From a virus: a DNA stretch of 33,535 bases. The notes under the pieces are model-generated. The model was not told the DNA's origin and did no database searches. It saw nothing but the letters and a program-made list of their open reading frames with translations. The first letter of the stretch is position 1; every line of letters starts with the position of its first letter. The position numbers were made by a program, and so were the translations under genes. Below are positions 1,423-29,951 of the stretch, one piece after another. The DNA lies in the IMG/VR virus record IMGVR_UViG_3300025669_000128, positions 1-33,535 of that record. One strand, written 5' to 3'.

Positions 1423-4320
1423 TTAATGTTTACAATTACCATTTTTCTCAAAAAATTCTTTAACATTTTCTAATTTTTGCGTTCTAGGTGCTGGGGGCAA
1501 AGATGCTAGTACCTGAGTCTTGTAAGACCTGTAGTTTAATCTTTCATCCAGTATGGCTATTACACCATAATCAGTTTTGCTTCTTATGAGTCTGCCTACG
1601 CCTTGTTTAATTTTTAAACAGGCATCTGGTATCGTGTATCTGTTCCAATGAGACCCTTTTCCGTACCGCTTTTCTATTCTCTCCGCCTTACTAGTATAGA
1701 CCAAATCGCTCGGATTGCCAAATGGAACTTTGTGGATTACGACTAATACTAATCCATTGTCTTTTATATCTACTCCTTCCCAAAAACTTCTAGTTCCAAA
1801 CAGCACAGCATTTTCCGTTTCCTCAAAATCATCCAACAACTTCTTTCTTGACACACCCTTGGATTGAACCAACTTCGGATATTTAGTTTCCGTATATTCA
1901 TAAAAATGATTCATGTCTCTATACGAAGTGAATAACACAAAAGCTTTGCCCTCCGAATACTCTAGCAACTTCTCCAACTCATATGTCCTTTCCTTATCCC
2001 CATTCGTTATATAAATCATGGCATTGGTCTTGTAATCAAATGGAGAACCCACTATCAATTCTTCTACATCTTCCAACTCAAACTGGTCTTTAAAAAATCT
2101 AAAGCTTCCTCCACTAGCCAATGTGGCAGAGGTGCATATTACAGCCCCATCTTCAAATAAGGTTTGTTTCAGAAGAGGTCCAATGTTTAGAGGCACAGAC
2201 TTTAAGGTTACAGTCGGTTTGAAAGTATTGTTCTTTGGGTCATACGCTTCTGCCCACCTCAAAGTATTTTCATTATCCCCACCCAGTTCTTTTAACCTAC
2301 TAATTAAATTGTTTCCCTCACGAACCGCAGCATTAATTTTTAATTGGGTCGCCTCATCCTTCAAAAGCTTAGGGCTTTCTCCAATTTGTTCCACCATTCT
2401 CTCTAACTTATCTATCATGCTACCCGCCAATACAAACTTTTTCATTTTCTTTTGAACAAAATACCCATTTTTCTTTTCAGGAGTATATTTCTGCAATGCT
2501 GTTCTAAATTCATTCTCCAACAAATGTCTAGCGTGTTTAGGAATAGCGGTCTTGGTTATCGCTTTATTTAAAAAATGTCTTAAAGAAAATATGTTTATCT
2601 CATCACTAAACGCCATAGACGCATATTTCTCAAATGCGTGAGCCTCATCCAACACAACCAAATCGGCTTCAGGGAGTATTCTCTTCTCTCCATCCGTTTT
2701 TAGTCTTAGAGACGCGTCTAGGGCTAACAGGGTGTGATTGACAAGTATTATCTGCGCCTTCTTAGTTCGTTCTTTTGCTAAATTAGCATAACAAGTCGCT
2801 GAAGCATCTTTCTTGTGAATTATGTCTGACGAGCATACTAACAATTCTTTTACGGCAGGGTCTAGGTGTTCAGGATAATAACTAATATCACCCACCCCAT
2901 CCTTCTTCACCCAATCAACAATGCTCTTTAGTTCACCTTCTGAAGTCAACTCTAACAACTCATCTTCATTAATCTTAAAGTTCTCTTCACAAAAATAATT
3001 ATTCTTCCCCTTCAATACGGCCCAAGTAAAATCCTCATCAAATATTTTTTTCAAAGCTGGTAGGTCTTTATCTCCCAACTGGTCTTGTAAACTTTTATTA
3101 GAAGTAGAAACAATTACTTTCTTTCCAGATAATATAGCAGGAATTAAATACGCAAAACTATTATGAGAAACAATAAAATTAGCCAATAAATATCTATAGT
3201 TTCCATTTAAAGAAAATCCATAATATTTTCCAACCCCAACACTTTTTATAGAAAAGCCAAAATTCAACACATTCTTAATCTGTTTTCTTTTGGGGCTTTG
3301 TTTCCTTTTTATTCTAGTTGGAATTATTGAACAATCTCCAGATATGCCGACCACAAAAGAAAGAAACTTTTTATTGTTGCACCATGTATATTTTTTTCTT
3401 TTTGTTGCTCTCAACCCCAACGACCTGACAATAAACACCACACTATCTATAATTCTTTCATTGGTATTATAAAAATCAAACCCCCCATGTCTATAACTCC
3501 CATCTGAATCTAACAAGCCCGCCAATAATTTTAATTGTATATTTTTATGATTAATTGTGTAGTTATTTGGTATGTGTTTGTTATTAATTACCCCAATATC
3601 GCAAAGTTGTTTATGTAATTCATTTTTAGTCTTTCCATAACCACCAATATTTCCACGAGTAATTTTATAAGTGGCACATTTTTTCTTCTTCCCCTTAACA
3701 GAAATATAATAACCATTCATGTCCTTAACCATGTTTTTCAAATAATCAACAACTTCCTTATCTTCGGTGGTTATTCCTGTATCGTGTTTGTTTCCATCTC
3801 CAAGCCAAAGCCCTAAAAAATAAGGGTCTATAAGAACTGGTTTTTTGGGAAATGCGACTTCCACAGTAAATAATTTATGTAAATGTTTAAATTTGTCACT
3901 TTTTTGAATATACTCCCCTACAGAAATTTCAGTAACCACTTCTGTTCCCGTTTTTCTTAAAACAAGTATGTGGTCTTTATTCACTGTAAATGGTGTGCTC
4001 CTTATTGGTTTTATCTTAAACATCTTTTGTTTACCAGACACAACATTCATTACTTTTCTGTGTTTAGAATTATCTCCCATCACCAAATCACCAATTATTA
4101 TATCTTCTACTTTTTTTAAATCACCATTAAACATCAATATCTTTGTGCCTTTTTTATGACACTTACCAATTCCAGTTCCACCCTCTATCAACGCAACACT
4201 TTCATCCAGCATTGCTTTCTCAACCATCTCCGCCATCTTCACCTGTTCTGGGCGAAACTCATACTTATCAAAATGTTTGCTTAAAATTCCTTTTTCTTCA
4301 AAAATCTTTTTTAATGTCAT
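1423..4320 (-). CDS. DinG/XPD-type superfamily 2 helicase, intein-containing precursor
   Basis: A 965-residue precursor encoding an ATP-dependent DNA helicase split by an intein. Walker A reads GGTGIGK at residues 47-53, is broken by the intein (54-387), and resumes with S388 (SFAYLIPAIL). Further helicase motifs: DEAH at 558-561 (LVVLDEAHAF), GTRSFWEGVD at 842-851 and QGVGRLIR at 906-913. The spliced protein would be 631 residues. DinG/XPD proteins usually carry a four-cysteine iron-sulfur cluster between motifs I and II; only three candidate cysteines are visible (444, 496, 510), so the cluster may be degenerate. The start overlaps the upstream TGA as ATGA. The likely role is unwinding DNA during phage replication or repair. 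Splicing is required for activity because the intein disrupts the nucleotide-binding loop. Confidence 0.92.
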   Translation of the reverse strand: MTLKKIFEEKGILSKHFDKYEFRPEQVKMAEMVEKAMLDESVALIEGGTGIGKCHKKGTKILMFNGDLKKVEDIIIGDLVMGDNSKHRKVMNVVSGKQKMFKIKPIRSTPFTVNKDHILVLRKTGTEVVTEISVGEYIQKSDKFKHLHKLFTVEVAFPKKPVLIDPYFLGLWLGDGNKHDTGITTEDKEVVDYLKNMVKDMNGYYISVKGKKKKCATYKITRGNIGGYGKTKNELHKQLCDIGVINNKHIPNNYTINHKNIQLKLLAGLLDSDGSYRHGGFDFYNTNERIIDSVVFIVRSLGLRATKRKKYTWCNNKKFLSFVVGISGDCSIIPTRIKRKQSPKRKQIKNVLNFGFSIKSVGVGKYYGFSLNGNYRYLLANFIVSHNSFAYLIPAILSGKKVIVSTSNKSLQDQLGDKDLPALKKIFDEDFTWAVLKGKNNYFCEENFKINEDELLELTSEGELKSIVDWVKKDGVGDISYYPEHLDPAVKELLVCSSDIIHKKDASATCYANLAKERTKKAQIILVNHTLLALDASLRLKTDGEKRILPEADLVVLDEAHAFEKYASMAFSDEINIFSLRHFLNKAITKTAIPKHARHLLENEFRTALQKYTPEKKNGYFVQKKMKKFVLAGSMIDKLERMVEQIGESPKLLKDEATQLKINAAVREGNNLISRLKELGGDNENTLRWAEAYDPKNNTFKPTVTLKSVPLNIGPLLKQTLFEDGAVICTSATLASGGSFRFFKDQFELEDVEELIVGSPFDYKTNAMIYITNGDKERTYELEKLLEYSEGKAFVLFTSYRDMNHFYEYTETKYPKLVQSKGVSRKKLLDDFEETENAVLFGTRSFWEGVDIKDNGLVLVVIHKVPFGNPSDLVYTSKAERIEKRYGKGSHWNRYTIPDACLKIKQGVGRLIRSKTDYGVIAILDERLNYRSYKTQVLASLPPAPRTQKLENVKEFFEKNGNCKH
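3160..4161 (-). mobile_element. Intein with LAGLIDADG homing endonuclease inside the helicase P-loop
   Basis: A 334-residue in-frame intein, residues C54 to N387 of the helicase. It starts with the nucleophile Cys (CHKKGTKILMFNGDLKKVED, block A), has a block B with TPFTVNKDHILV including the conserved Thr and His, and ends with the C-terminal splice motif IVSHN followed by extein Ser. Two LAGLIDADG-type helices are visible, FLGLWLGDG (about 168-176) and LLAGLLDSDG (265-274), so it is a full-size homing intein rather than a mini-intein. Walker A loops are a favoured insertion site because the target DNA is conserved (established). The catalytic Asp residues of both endonuclease helices are present, so the nuclease may be active. 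Confidence 0.95.
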
Positions 4321-10409: not shown

Positions 10410-10429
10410 AGTCTTCTATTTAATTTTTA
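10407..10429 (-). repeat. 23-bp repeated gene leader, copy 1
   Basis: Start codon plus 20 leader bases identical to 12616-12638. Both lie directly before a gene, so they may be a duplicated translation-start cassette. Confidence 0.7.
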
Positions 10430-11174
10430 ATTCTTTAGCTTGTTTTACTAATTCATCAACTTGTTCAAGTGGGTTGTCAAACTTCTCATCCCAAACTTTT
10501 TTAACATATTCTTCTTCTGCTTTATCTGCGAGTGCCTTCTCATTATCTTCCATATCTTCCTTACACATCTCCTCATGCTCTACATCTTTAAACATTTTTC
10601 TTGACAAAGATGCTTTTCTTTTTTTCCTGTCTGCTGGAGTTGTCAATGCCATCAGGTCAGACGTCCCCCTTTTAACTCTAGAATAGAATGTGTCTCTACT
10701 GATATTATATTCAAGTAACCAATCTGTTAATATTTTTGTTTTACCATTAACGGTTATTTTTCTATTTCTTCTGCTATTTCTAGATTGTTCTCTTTGAGTG
10801 GTCCATCTACAATTCGACTTACAATAATCACCATCATTGTCAATTCTATCTATGCTTAAATTTTGTAAATATGTATCTTTCTTATCTTCCCAAAAACCCT
10901 CAAAATTTCTCCATTTATAACAATATCCAATTCCACGACCTCCATAATTTTTATAACCAATATGGCTGGGATTATCACATCTGTTTTTCATCGCTGACCA
11001 TATACCATATTCTCTACTAGTAGATTTGTCATGCGTTGTGTGTGTTTCCTTGTGAACTTTTCTCCAAAGAGGGCTGTGCATATTATCAGTTTTTTCTTCA
11101 CAACAAGCCTCGTGAGAGGCATTAAAATCAGAGTCATAAAGTTCGTCACAGTGTGGGCACATCATTATGCTCAT
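10416..11174 (-). CDS. HNH homing-endonuclease domain inserted in a zinc-finger protein
   Basis: A 252-residue protein that looks composite. Residues 1-28 form a zinc-finger-like element (MMCPHC then HEACC). Residues about 55-165 are the HNH-type homing endonuclease found in many phages (YKNYGGRGIGYCYKWRNF, LSIDRIDNDGDYCKSNCRWT), followed by a helix-turn-helix-like segment (WLLEYNISRDTFYSRVKRG). The last 70 residues are acidic and helical and begin with HEEMCKEDMEDN, a near-repeat of HEACCEEKTDN at the N-terminal edge of the insert. The simplest reading is that an endonuclease entered a small C2HC zinc protein in frame and that the target half-finger was duplicated. Its start overlaps the upstream gene as ATGA. 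Confidence 0.8.
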   Translation of the reverse strand: MSIMMCPHCDELYDSDFNASHEACCEEKTDNMHSPLWRKVHKETHTTHDKSTSREYGIWSAMKNRCDNPSHIGYKNYGGRGIGYCYKWRNFEGFWEDKKDTYLQNLSIDRIDNDGDYCKSNCRWTTQREQSRNSRRNRKITVNGKTKILTDWLLEYNISRDTFYSRVKRGTSDLMALTTPADRKKRKASLSRKMFKDVEHEEMCKEDMEDNEKALADKAEEEYVKKVWDEKFDNPLEQVDELVKQAKELKIK

Positions 11175-27277: not shown

Positions 27278-27720
27278 GTTACGTCCACACTAATTCTTAC
27301 TCCCACAGTTAATTCCGCCATTATCAATTCTTCTTGCACAACTTGACCCCATGCTCCAGGCGTAGCCCATATATTCAAATAGGTATATCCCGCAGGTAAG
27401 CCTATGCCAACTGTTCTTGTCGTACCTCCCTTTTGGTCCTCTTGGTCTAGTAAATCCAAAACACTATCCACAACCTCTTCCAATGCTTCCAAAGCACCTT
27501 CCACACCCGTATTTTTAGTTTCATAAAACAATCTCACCTTAAAAGCATAAGTTCTCACATTTTCCGTTGTTGTTTCATAATCTGCAGAATTTTCAGAAGG
27601 TATGACATGAGCCGCTGGATAACCGTCAAACTTTATTTTTGGGCTACTAGAAACCTCCTGTATCGTATCTACAGTTTCTAACAATGTTGCTATTTGTGGT
27701 CTAATTATTTTAAACGACAT
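27274..27720 (-). CDS. Tail terminator protein
   Basis: A 148-residue alpha/beta protein. The start (FKIIRPQIATLLETVDTIQE) and the central segment (YAFKVRLFYETKNTGVEGAL, EALEEVVDSVLDLLDQED) fit the tail terminator or minor tail U-like family that caps the tube at the head-proximal end. The order of connector, gp10-like protein, terminator and tube protein matches HK97-type genomes. Identification rests on position and fold pattern. Confidence 0.65.
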   Translation of the reverse strand: MSFKIIRPQIATLLETVDTIQEVSSSPKIKFDGYPAAHVIPSENSADYETTTENVRTYAFKVRLFYETKNTGVEGALEALEEVVDSVLDLLDQEDQKGGTTRTVGIGLPAGYTYLNIWATPGAWGQVVQEELIMAELTVGVRISVDVT

Positions 27721-27724
27721 ATTT

Positions 27725-28090
27725 TTACCTTATTTTCTTATTTATAAACAATTCTACATCTTTCTCAAATACGGGGTCAAATCTACTACTAGCCGAATCC
27801 GCACCCCAAAGCATAAAAGGTCTAGCTGCCATAAACCTAGTTCCCTCATGAACAAAATAATCATAATTTACATGTGGGGCAATAATAGCCGATAGGGGTT
27901 GTAACTCAACAGATATACTTGACCGCATCCTCCCAGTATCTACTGGTGCAACTCTCTTAGCTTCTCCCTCAACCATAAACGATAATTTCTTTACTTCTTC
28001 TCCCAAAAAACTAGTAAAATCAATAGAGGCAAACTTCTTACTTAATTCTTCAAAAGATGGATTTAGGGTAATTGTTATTAAACTAGACAT
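27725..28090 (-). CDS. HK97 gp10-like tail/neck protein
   Basis: A 121-residue protein with the family hallmark AKRVAPVDTGRMRSSI (about residues 44-59) and YDYFVHEGTRFMAARPFM (77-94). HK97 gp10 relatives act at the head-tail junction. The ATG (28088-28090) overlaps a remnant encoding REVILEEFNV and a stop, which shows that in the ancestor the head-closure gene ended by overlapping this start. The HNH gene at 28160-28945 now separates them. Confidence 0.85.
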   Translation of the reverse strand: MSSLITITLNPSFEELSKKFASIDFTSFLGEEVKKLSFMVEGEAKRVAPVDTGRMRSSISVELQPLSAIIAPHVNYDYFVHEGTRFMAARPFMLWGADSASSRFDPVFEKDVELFINKKIR

Positions 28091-28118
28091 TAAATTCCTC
28101 CAATATTACTTCTCTGTT
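28083..28118 (-). pseudogene. Remnant 3' end of the head-closure gene
   Basis: Minus strand in frame: N-REVILEEFNV-stop (TAG). The same ten residues and a stop end the intact head-closure gene at 28977-29012. The codons differ at many third positions (GAA/GAG, GTA/GTG, ATA/ATT, TTG/TTA, GAG/GAA, GTC/GTT). This copy overlaps the start of the gp10-like gene, so it is the original end; the intact gene uses a recoded end next to the HNH insertion. Confidence 0.88.
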
Positions 28119-28159
28119 TTTTATTCTTTTTAGCATAAAGTAATTATAGCACGACCAAC

Positions 28160-28945
28160 TCAATTCCCATATGGCCCGTGACCCTTGCCTCCATAATTAT
28201 CTGTCTTTTTATGACACCCTACACACAACGTTCTTCCATTATTTACATCCCACAATTCTGGAATAGCATAAGCCTCCCGCATACTCCTTGGATTAAATCT
28301 TTTTAACAATTTCGCAAAACCCGCTATATGGTCCGCATTTAAAATAACCCTTTTTCCTTCCCCATTTTTTGCACCACACGTCTGGCAAGTATACTTGTCT
28401 CTTTTAAAAACCGCCTCTCTCCATAATCTATATTTCATAGACCTTCTAAGATAAAGATTTCTACGCGAAAGGTATCTTTCTGAGCGCCCTTCTCTATCAA
28501 ATCTACTCATCTGTGACTCACTCATCTTCTGTCGTATTTCTTTGGTAAAGGGATTCTGACAATTCATAGGTTTTCCCCGCATACTTTTCCAATAACATTC
28601 CATAGAACAAAAAGAATTTTTTGCCCTCTTTTCCAAAGACTTAATTCTATAAAACTTTTTCTTACAAATCGGACATGCCATCTCCCTCTTTGTTGTTCTT
28701 CCTATTCTTGTACACTCCAAAGAACAATAATGAGCATTTGAATTGTCACTAGGATAAACCCTCACTTTCTTACCACAAACACCACACAAACAAAAAATAT
28801 ATTTATGCGTTTTACTATTCCTACCAGTTTTGTGTAAATAATAACATTCTCTAGAACAGAATTTTCTATTTTTAAACGCCCTCTTACTTTCGTTACACTT
28901 TTTAAAAAACTCTTCTCCACACTCTTCACAGAACTTACTATTCAT
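28160..28945 (-). CDS. HNH homing endonuclease with zinc-finger array
   Basis: A 261-residue protein. Residues 1-120 contain four zinc fingers (FCEECGEEF, FCSRECYYLH, CGVCGKKV with YCSLECTRIG, CPICKKKF with FCSMECYW). The C-terminal HNH nuclease has YTCQTCGAK, ILNADHIAGF and NNGRTLCVGCHKK. It sits between the head-closure gene and the gp10-like gene. It carries its own leaderless-type promoter, and the upstream gene keeps a recoded copy of its last codons, so the unit looks like a mobile element that repaired its target on entry. Same fold class as the 22293-22937 protein, but with a different DNA-binding part. Confidence 0.9.
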   Translation of the reverse strand: MNSKFCEECGEEFFKKCNESKRAFKNRKFCSRECYYLHKTGRNSKTHKYIFCLCGVCGKKVRVYPSDNSNAHYCSLECTRIGRTTKREMACPICKKKFYRIKSLEKRAKNSFCSMECYWKSMRGKPMNCQNPFTKEIRQKMSESQMSRFDREGRSERYLSRRNLYLRRSMKYRLWREAVFKRDKYTCQTCGAKNGEGKRVILNADHIAGFAKLLKRFNPRSMREAYAIPELWDVNNGRTLCVGCHKKTDNYGGKGHGPYGN

Positions 28946-28951
28946 AAGTTT

Positions 28952-28980
28952 ATTGTAATACTACATCAATATTAGGTCAA
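28952..28980 (-). promoter_or_regulatory. Leaderless-type promoter of the HNH gene
   Basis: Minus strand: -35 TTGACC (28975-28980), 17-bp spacer, -10 TACAAT (28952-28957), then AAACTT and the ATG at 28945. The gap of six bases is the same as for the ribbon-helix-helix and metallophosphoesterase B genes. The TGA in the -35 box is the stop codon of the head-closure gene. Confidence 0.75.
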
Positions 28981-29291
28981 ACATTAAATTCTTCTAAAAT
29001 CACCTCTCTGTGTTGATTAATGCCATATGCCTTAGTCACAATTTCTCTTATGCTGTATCTAACATCATTCTCATCAATTAACTGGTCGCCTTCCTGAATT
29101 GGTGCATCAACCGCAAACCAAGCCTTCCATGCCTTCTCTTCAATAATACCTAAAGTTTGTCTTGCGTCTACATCTAAACTTTGAATATGCCCAGCCACAG
29201 TTGCAGTAGTCTGTAAAGCTTTCTTGTTCCCACTCACAGTCCTCAACCTTTGTATTACTACATTCTGGTCAAAAAATCTTCTAATAGCCAT
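28977..29291 (-). CDS. Head closure / head-tail joining protein
   Basis: A 104-residue strand-rich protein (FDQNVVIQRLRTVSGNKKAL, DQLIDENDVRYSIREIVTKA) of the size and position of HK97 gp7 or SPP1 gp16-type head-closure proteins that seal the connector. The C-terminus REVILEEFNV is encoded by codons that differ from the remnant copy at 28083-28118, so the last ten codons probably arrived with the HNH element. Confidence 0.75.
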   Translation of the reverse strand: MAIRRFFDQNVVIQRLRTVSGNKKALQTTATVAGHIQSLDVDARQTLGIIEEKAWKAWFAVDAPIQEGDQLIDENDVRYSIREIVTKAYGINQHREVILEEFNV

Positions 29292-29294
29292 TTT

Positions 29295-29951
29295 TTAATT
29301 TTGTAAAGGAGTTAAAGCACTTCCAAATTCACTCACATCTGCGTGCTTATCTAATATATTTTTTACTGTTTCATTCTCTAACATAGACGGTCCATATTTG
29401 ACGCTATAATCTCCTATTGATTCTGATTCAATTCCAGCCCCTCCGCCACTTCTTCTGCTATAAACCTCATTAACCATCATCCAAATTGCCATTTCTAATT
29501 CTCCAGCTTCCGTGTCTGATAAAAATGTGGTTACATTATCAAAATCATATCCTGCTGTGTAAGTAACTCTATATCCTTTTACAGACCTAGAAAACATTAA
29601 TCCACTAGCACCTTTTATTATTCCTGTCGCATTATCAACATTGTAATATTTGCTTTCTACCACTCCCCAATTCTCCTCATTTAATCCTGACGCCCTGCTA
29701 TCTAATGTAAATGTTTCTCCTGATACTACTGGACAGTGCTTCAACACAAGTACATTTGACCTTTCCGAATCATATTCCTCATTAGTATAGGATGTCTTCT
29801 TAATTCTCTTGCCTATATAACTCTCACAATAATCTGTTAAGGCATTAATCAATCCTTCCATAACAGTTTCATTGGTTCCAGTTAATGTGCCCAAACCACC
29901 AAAATTAGCAGCTCTCTCCACGGTAGTCCAAGCGTAACTTTTAAGACTCAT
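29295..29951 (-). CDS. Head-tail adaptor (connector) protein
   Basis: A 218-residue protein of the HK97 gp6 / SPP1 gp15 adaptor type: an N-terminal helix-rich part (ETVMEGLINALTDYCESYIG KRI, broken here for length) and a strand segment with YDSERSNVLVLKHCPVVSGE, then GYRVTYTAGYDFDNV and EMAIWMMVNEVYSRRSGGGA, ending with the adaptor signature ESIGDYSVKYG. The ring of adaptors binds below the portal. Three bases separate it from the head-closure gene, as expected for a co-translated pair. Confidence 0.8.
   Translation of the reverse strand: MSLKSYAWTTVERAANFGGLGTLTGTNETVMEGLINALTDYCESYIGKRIKKTSYTNEEYDSERSNVLVLKHCPVVSGETFTLDSRASGLNEENWGVVESKYYNVDNATGIIKGASGLMFSRSVKGYRVTYTAGYDFDNVTTFLSDTEAGELEMAIWMMVNEVYSRRSGGGAGIESESIGDYSVKYGPSMLENETVKNILDKHADVSEFGSALTPLQN

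Follow-up and report, generated by a model that had tools for sequence, protein, structure and literature searches.

How homing genes that reside in neither introns nor inteins enter densely packed, essential phage genes without killing the phage is an open question. Here a free-standing HNH endonuclease gene in the late operon of a bacterial virus is examined in this light. The window analyzed here is the whole of a 33,535-nucleotide stretch of viral DNA (IMG/VR record IMGVR_UViG_3300025669_000128), in which the end of a head-closure gene occurs on both sides of the HNH gene. We consider it likely that this gene belongs to a free-standing HNH homing element that travels in two parts, the nuclease gene and a replacement for the end of its target gene, and a unit provided with its own replacement gene end would answer the question of entry. 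The layout predicts, from sequence alone, the cut position of each enzyme, namely the edge of the leftover copy, making the target sites of uncharacterized phage endonucleases testable; it also accounts for the gene fragments and hybrid ends that occur in phage annotation, and connects the endonucleases of phages with a layout known until now from fungal mitochondria.

Genomic context of the HNH gene

The late operon lies on the minus strand and runs from a head-tail adaptor gene (29951-29295) through the head-closure, HNH and neck/HK97 gp10-like genes to the tail genes. The features relevant to the analysis are as follows.

28977..29291, minus strand: head-closure gene (P0001), complete, 104 aa, the last 10 codons forming one copy of the gene end
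28977..29012, minus strand: upstream copy, H-REVILEEFNV-stop, reading TTAGAAGAATTT, without the GGAGG of the downstream copy
28961..28984, minus strand: possible neck-gene-start fragment MFDLILM-stop, tentatively assigned by comparison with the neck starts of relatives
28160..28945, minus strand: free-standing HNH endonuclease gene (P0002), 261 aa, HNH core intact and CxxC motifs present
28143..28151, minus strand: extended -10-like motif TGCTATAAT, between the HNH stop and the downstream copy
28083..28136, minus strand: 17-codon open frame MLKRIKNREVILEEFNV-stop, seen in translation, holding the downstream copy
28083..28118, minus strand: downstream copy, N-REVILEEFNV-stop, at the position of the gene end in HNH-free relatives
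28097..28101, minus strand: GGAGG within the downstream copy, the ribosome-binding site for the neck gene, with the same ATATTGGAGGAA in HNH-free L004
27725..28090, minus strand: neck/HK97 gp10-like gene (P0003), 121 aa, assigned from matches and relatives

The product of the HNH gene matches PHROG HNH families (best E=1.2e-14). Its sequence contains the catalytic His/Asn/His and zinc Cys residues of an HNH nuclease domain, and H206, N236, H245, C187, C190, C241 and C244 are invariant in an alignment of HNH relatives. Searches of a phage reference collection returned zero DNA matches to the window and a single weak match to the HNH protein.

Two copies of the head-closure gene end

REVILEEFNV-stop closes the head-closure gene (stop at 28977) and recurs past the HNH gene at 28118-28083, exactly where an earlier note on this DNA, made from the sequence alone, had located the ten repeated residues and their stop. 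The upstream copy (29012-28977) is CAC AGA GAG GTG ATT TTA GAA GAA TTT AAT GTT TGA, and the downstream copy (28118-28083), which overlaps the neck-gene ATG at 28090, is AAC AGA GAA GTA ATA TTG GAG GAA TTT AAT GTC TAG. The earlier note described the two versions as differing at almost every third position, which overstates the contrast, as only 6 of the 10 codons differ, but every change is indeed a synonymous third-base change (0/0/6 by codon position). The stop codons are also unlike, TGA upstream and TAG downstream. When anchored at the stop, the match between the copies obtains a suffix score of 50, whereas the highest score among 28,940 mis-paired comparisons is 31; it is thus far beyond chance, the contribution of which is negligible. 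Because three more IMG/VR contigs (L002, L003 and L007) carry the same arrangement, the layout is not an assembly artefact. L003 is 99.35% identical to the window, and its 29 SNPs all fall outside the two-copy arrangement. Most of these SNPs fall within 27286-27499, suggesting a recent recombination patch.

In seven HNH-free relatives (L004, L005/L006, L012, L035-L038) the head-closure and neck genes are directly adjacent or overlapping, indicating that the HNH gene is an insertion between them, as had been proposed, its site being unoccupied in relatives as is expected of a homing gene. The earlier note expected such relatives to end the head-closure gene as in the downstream copy. The downstream copy does occupy the position of the gene end in HNH-free relatives, where the C-termini resemble HLEVILEEQSA. 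None of the seven, whose head-closure proteins are 57-65% identical to that of the window over nearly full length, carries the recoded version represented by the upstream copy; a close HNH-free relative of the window phage was not found in the collections searched. No gene-end duplication was detected at the HNH gene of L005. A relative of the window phage, L012, has an HNH gene at the start of its tape-measure gene (L012:3950-4660), with a possible leftover start (NTNIEVII vs NTNVKVII).

Comparison of both flanks revealed no extended homology between the copies outside the shared ~10-12 codons, with perhaps ~20 bp more. Directly 3' of the upstream copy, the sequence ATG TTT GAC CTA ATA TTG ATG TAG encodes MFDLILM-stop. 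The shared stretch may therefore reach ~20 bp into the next gene, since this peptide is similar to neck-gene starts such as MFDIRLRFEPP in L005. Homology extending well past the gene end, which the earlier note regarded as the mark of a simple gene duplication, is absent, and tandem gene duplication was ruled against on this basis.

Two further types of element were considered. HNH genes are frequent in phage introns, and a group I intron or similar RNA element could restore the gene by being spliced out. We regard this as barely credible here: no match to any Rfam intron family was found in 27900-29300, and splicing is unneeded because both copies carry stop codons. RNA folding at the downstream copy was worse than that of shuffled sequences. 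The second type is an integrase-type element that restores the gene end. The prophages phage 21 and e14, which enter icd, rebuild the 3' end of that gene. They likewise carry a substitute gene end with mostly synonymous changes, but use an integrase and an attachment core, whereas the element described here has a nuclease gene. Only the HNH gene sits between the two copies, and an integrase-type element was rejected, there being no integrase gene within the element.

Composition and polarity of the inserted unit

The composition of the unit can be resolved most clearly at a second locus, L057, where an HNH gene adjoins an exonuclease gene for which 21 close relatives without an HNH gene at the site are available (L177-L197, 84-90% identity). 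The truncated copy of the exonuclease start preceding the HNH gene, MSQPTQERPIIIIDAFNNF, matches the HNH-free relatives together with the control region upstream of it, and is identical to HNH-free L197 at 52 of 57 bases (91%) from ATG to NNF. Conversely, the first ~60 bp of the live gene are only 50-67% identical on average to the HNH-free relatives, which in this same region are 97-98% identical to their own nearest neighbours. From AACAATTTT onwards the live gene is 90-97% identical to L197, and the leftover copy ends at the same AACAATTTT. These matches therefore define an inserted unit in which the HNH gene is combined with a recoded start, and whose boundary can be placed to within about ten bases. 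Judged by sequence comparison, the truncated copy is demonstrably native, and the foreign part of the live gene is confined to its initial ~60 bp. At L057 the leftover is thus closer than the live copy to element-free relatives, as expected for a gene-end replacement of the fungal mitochondrial mobile-ORF type. A related pattern is seen in the methylase genes of L052 and L053, which, beyond a single conserved motif block, share little similarity upstream; their 3' ends and the HNH gene are 77-100% identical, with similarity ending at the HNH stop. The extent of identity in this pair shows a nuclease and a gene end moving as a unit.

The earlier note suggested that the mobile unit brings in the recoded end that restores the interrupted gene. 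L057 bears this out with a sharp junction; in the window, however, a mosaic in the neck gene points the other way. The 5' half of that gene is 63-75% identical to L009, the nearest relative, the contig of which starts inside the neck gene, versus 80-97% beyond about 27900, and the window-L009 pair is an outlier among 36 pairs for the contrast between N-half and C-half divergence. It is accordingly possible, if doubtful, that the same kind of element entered the window with opposite polarity, the upstream copy being native, the HNH gene, downstream copy and 5' half of the neck gene being imported, and a native MFDLILM-stop being left behind. The presence of this possible neck-start fragment before the HNH gene fits such an arrangement, as does the equal frequency of start-of-gene and end-of-gene cases in the survey reported below. 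On the other hand, the downstream copy is in the ancestral position, with the ribosome site seen in HNH-free L004; the MFDLILM match spans just seven residues, and the mosaic could lie in L009 instead. Since the neck-gene mosaic and MFDLILM-stop fit an imported downstream copy, the polarity originally put forward for the window receives moderate weight at most.

Recurrence of the layout at other loci

HNH relatives were collected from viral contigs, and the DNA before and after each HNH gene was compared in translation at 89 loci. Six of these loci score at least 40 (L020, L041, which is the window locus, L053, L057, L108 and L110), against an expectation of 0.3 loci from mis-paired flanks, a conservative null because its scores include some homologous loci; the weak candidates L012, L018 and L077 were left out of the count. 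Over 90% of HNH loci are without detectable duplication, a scarcity that counts against the favoured reading unless leftover fragments decay or entry often takes place by other routes. The gene-end form is observed at the window locus, at L053 (DNA methylase) and at L110. L020, L057 and L108 present the mirror image, in which a truncated start precedes the HNH gene and a complete recoded start follows it. Base differences between the copies fall mainly at third codon positions.

Non-HNH genes in the same loci, 272 in all, served as controls. Four of them reach a score of 44, namely a GIY-YIG nuclease gene that shares the layout, a gene next to an HNH gene, and two that appear to be low-complexity. 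At a threshold of at least 40, the layout is enriched at HNH genes (6/89 vs 4/272, Fisher p=0.017). This enrichment bears on a reading without any role for the endonuclease, in which homeologous recombination between related phages, with overlapping breakpoints, placed two diverged copies around an accessory gene. Phage genomes are mosaic, and the copies do look like alleles of related phages, but the preference for nuclease genes over controls and the precise short units of L057 and L052/L053 make this account unlikely.

A local duplication kept for expression also seems improbable to us. The downstream copy would here supply the ribosome site of the neck gene and translational coupling, the two copies having drifted later. 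Its GGAGG is well spaced, the 17-codon frame could couple translation because its stop overlaps the neck start, and L053 has a similar coupled frame. In L057, however, the mismatch between the live gene start and the relatives implies that divergence predates entry, and such a duplication would not readily yield the diverged residues included in the copies of L020, L053 and L108.

In L110, the GIY-YIG endonuclease accompanies a live end IARGGQILNP-stop and a leftover IARGGQVLNP-stop fused to the nuclease's own 3' end. The region L110:2665-4612 contains a RuvC-like gene flanked by an HNH gene before it and the GIY-YIG gene after it, each with a leftover gene end, and L171 is a strain of this locus in which the GIY-YIG gene has lost about 510 bp. 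An independent set, consisting of cellular genome contigs, added L126, an HNH locus at the end of an amidase gene (GHRNFSNTSCPGKNLYSWL / GHRDFSSTSCPGRNVYNFI). No further relative was found for the host gene of L020, neither the L057 nor the L110 region had a DNA match in the phage reference collection, and for L053 only terminase matches were present among the matches listed. In L119, the HNH gene follows a structural gene, and an HNH-N-terminus-like fragment, KRVAANRKSGAYD, occurs ahead of the latter (near 2000-2180 and 2823). Among the free-standing nucleases in the first 50 kb of T4 there was no clear case of duplication. T4 mobC and the following nrdG (L175:42906-43538) both start with MNYDRIY, with two synonymous differences; the case is ambiguous because T4 MobB also starts with MNYxxIY, so that the match may be either a duplicated gene start or a coincidence with the usual start of the HNH family.

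An extended -10-like motif, TGNTATAAT, is found just before 13 of 89 HNH genes versus 6 of 487 control genes (p=1.6e-7). In the window, the corresponding motif stands after the HNH gene, ahead of the 17-codon frame, where it may have remained from the start of another HNH gene or may serve the neck gene as a promoter.

Proposed mechanism

For the favoured reading, a homing element combining a nuclease gene with a substitute gene end, we propose that the HNH enzyme would cut an element-free phage near the gene boundary, at the edge of the leftover copy. Repair of the break, as the junctions suggest, would copy the HNH gene and the diverged flanking gene end of the donor into the recipient. The interrupted gene would thereby be restored, encoding the same protein in different DNA, as the sequences of the copies show, and the recipient's own end would remain beyond the HNH gene. 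One side would join via a short shared sequence, seven bases in the window (ACAGAGA) and nine in L057 (AACAATTTT). In the window, the leftover would persist as a short open frame with the ribosome site of the next gene. The new carrier probably escapes further cutting because its restored end is diverged, and the recoding may be selected or may simply reflect the divergence of the donor from the recipient. The layout is found both at the ends of preceding genes and at the starts of following genes.

As the layout recurs in unrelated viruses, these freeloader nucleases appear to repair the gene they enter. A broader proposition, on which we are close to evenly divided but lean towards doubt, is that free-standing HNH and GIY-YIG genes of phages are widespread as precise units of a nuclease and a recoded target end or start, the recoding being selected for carrier immunity while the target protein is kept.

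Relation to known systems

The closest anatomy is that of the mobile ORF (mORF) hybrids of fungal mitochondria, described for Glomus atp6, atp9, cox2 and nad3 and for Allomyces macrogynus atp6, in which a foreign C-terminal end in phase is followed by an ORF, the native end being left downstream (PMC3630166). The similarities comprise an endonuclease ORF placed where an essential gene ends, flanked by two diverged copies of the gene end, one of them in phase and the native one probably downstream, and nucleotide divergence with little change in protein. The mORFs are mitochondrial and encode LAGLIDADG or GIY-YIG enzymes, whereas the nuclease here is of the HNH type and has short copies beside it, of about 10-30 codons; the same report treats gene ends only, whereas the phage cases replace gene starts too (PMC3630166).

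T4-type intronless homing is the phage parent class of the window element. Like T4 Seg and Mob, as presented in a review (PMC2988022), the element has a free-standing nuclease gene, of the HNH or GIY-YIG type, next to a phage gene that is conserved, with flanks that would be co-converted. The T4 enzymes are described there as cutting at a distance of hundreds to thousands of bp from the genes that encode them, which counts against our preferred explanation, and no leftover or recoded gene end was found in that review. It also documents, for T4, one-sided homing with illegitimate junctions at microhomology (PMC2988022). That process similarly combines homology on one side with a microhomology junction on the other, but it is a laboratory assay with an intron and without restoration of a gene end. 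The layout had initially been regarded as little described. This holds for phages as far as the open-access papers searched can tell, including PMC2988022, PMC10448857 and PMC12724721, but the anatomy itself is known from fungal mitochondria (PMC3630166).

Other putative mobile elements in the window

A second HNH gene (22937-22293) lies between two tail genes and has an altered C-terminus, CHKQVTFKGGGMGAS; no gene-end duplication was found there (score 24). The central part of the gene at 10416-11174 looks like an AP2-type HNH homing endonuclease, and a helicase gene (1423-4320) is apparently interrupted by an intein at its P-loop (GTGIGK|CHKKGTK...VSHN|S).
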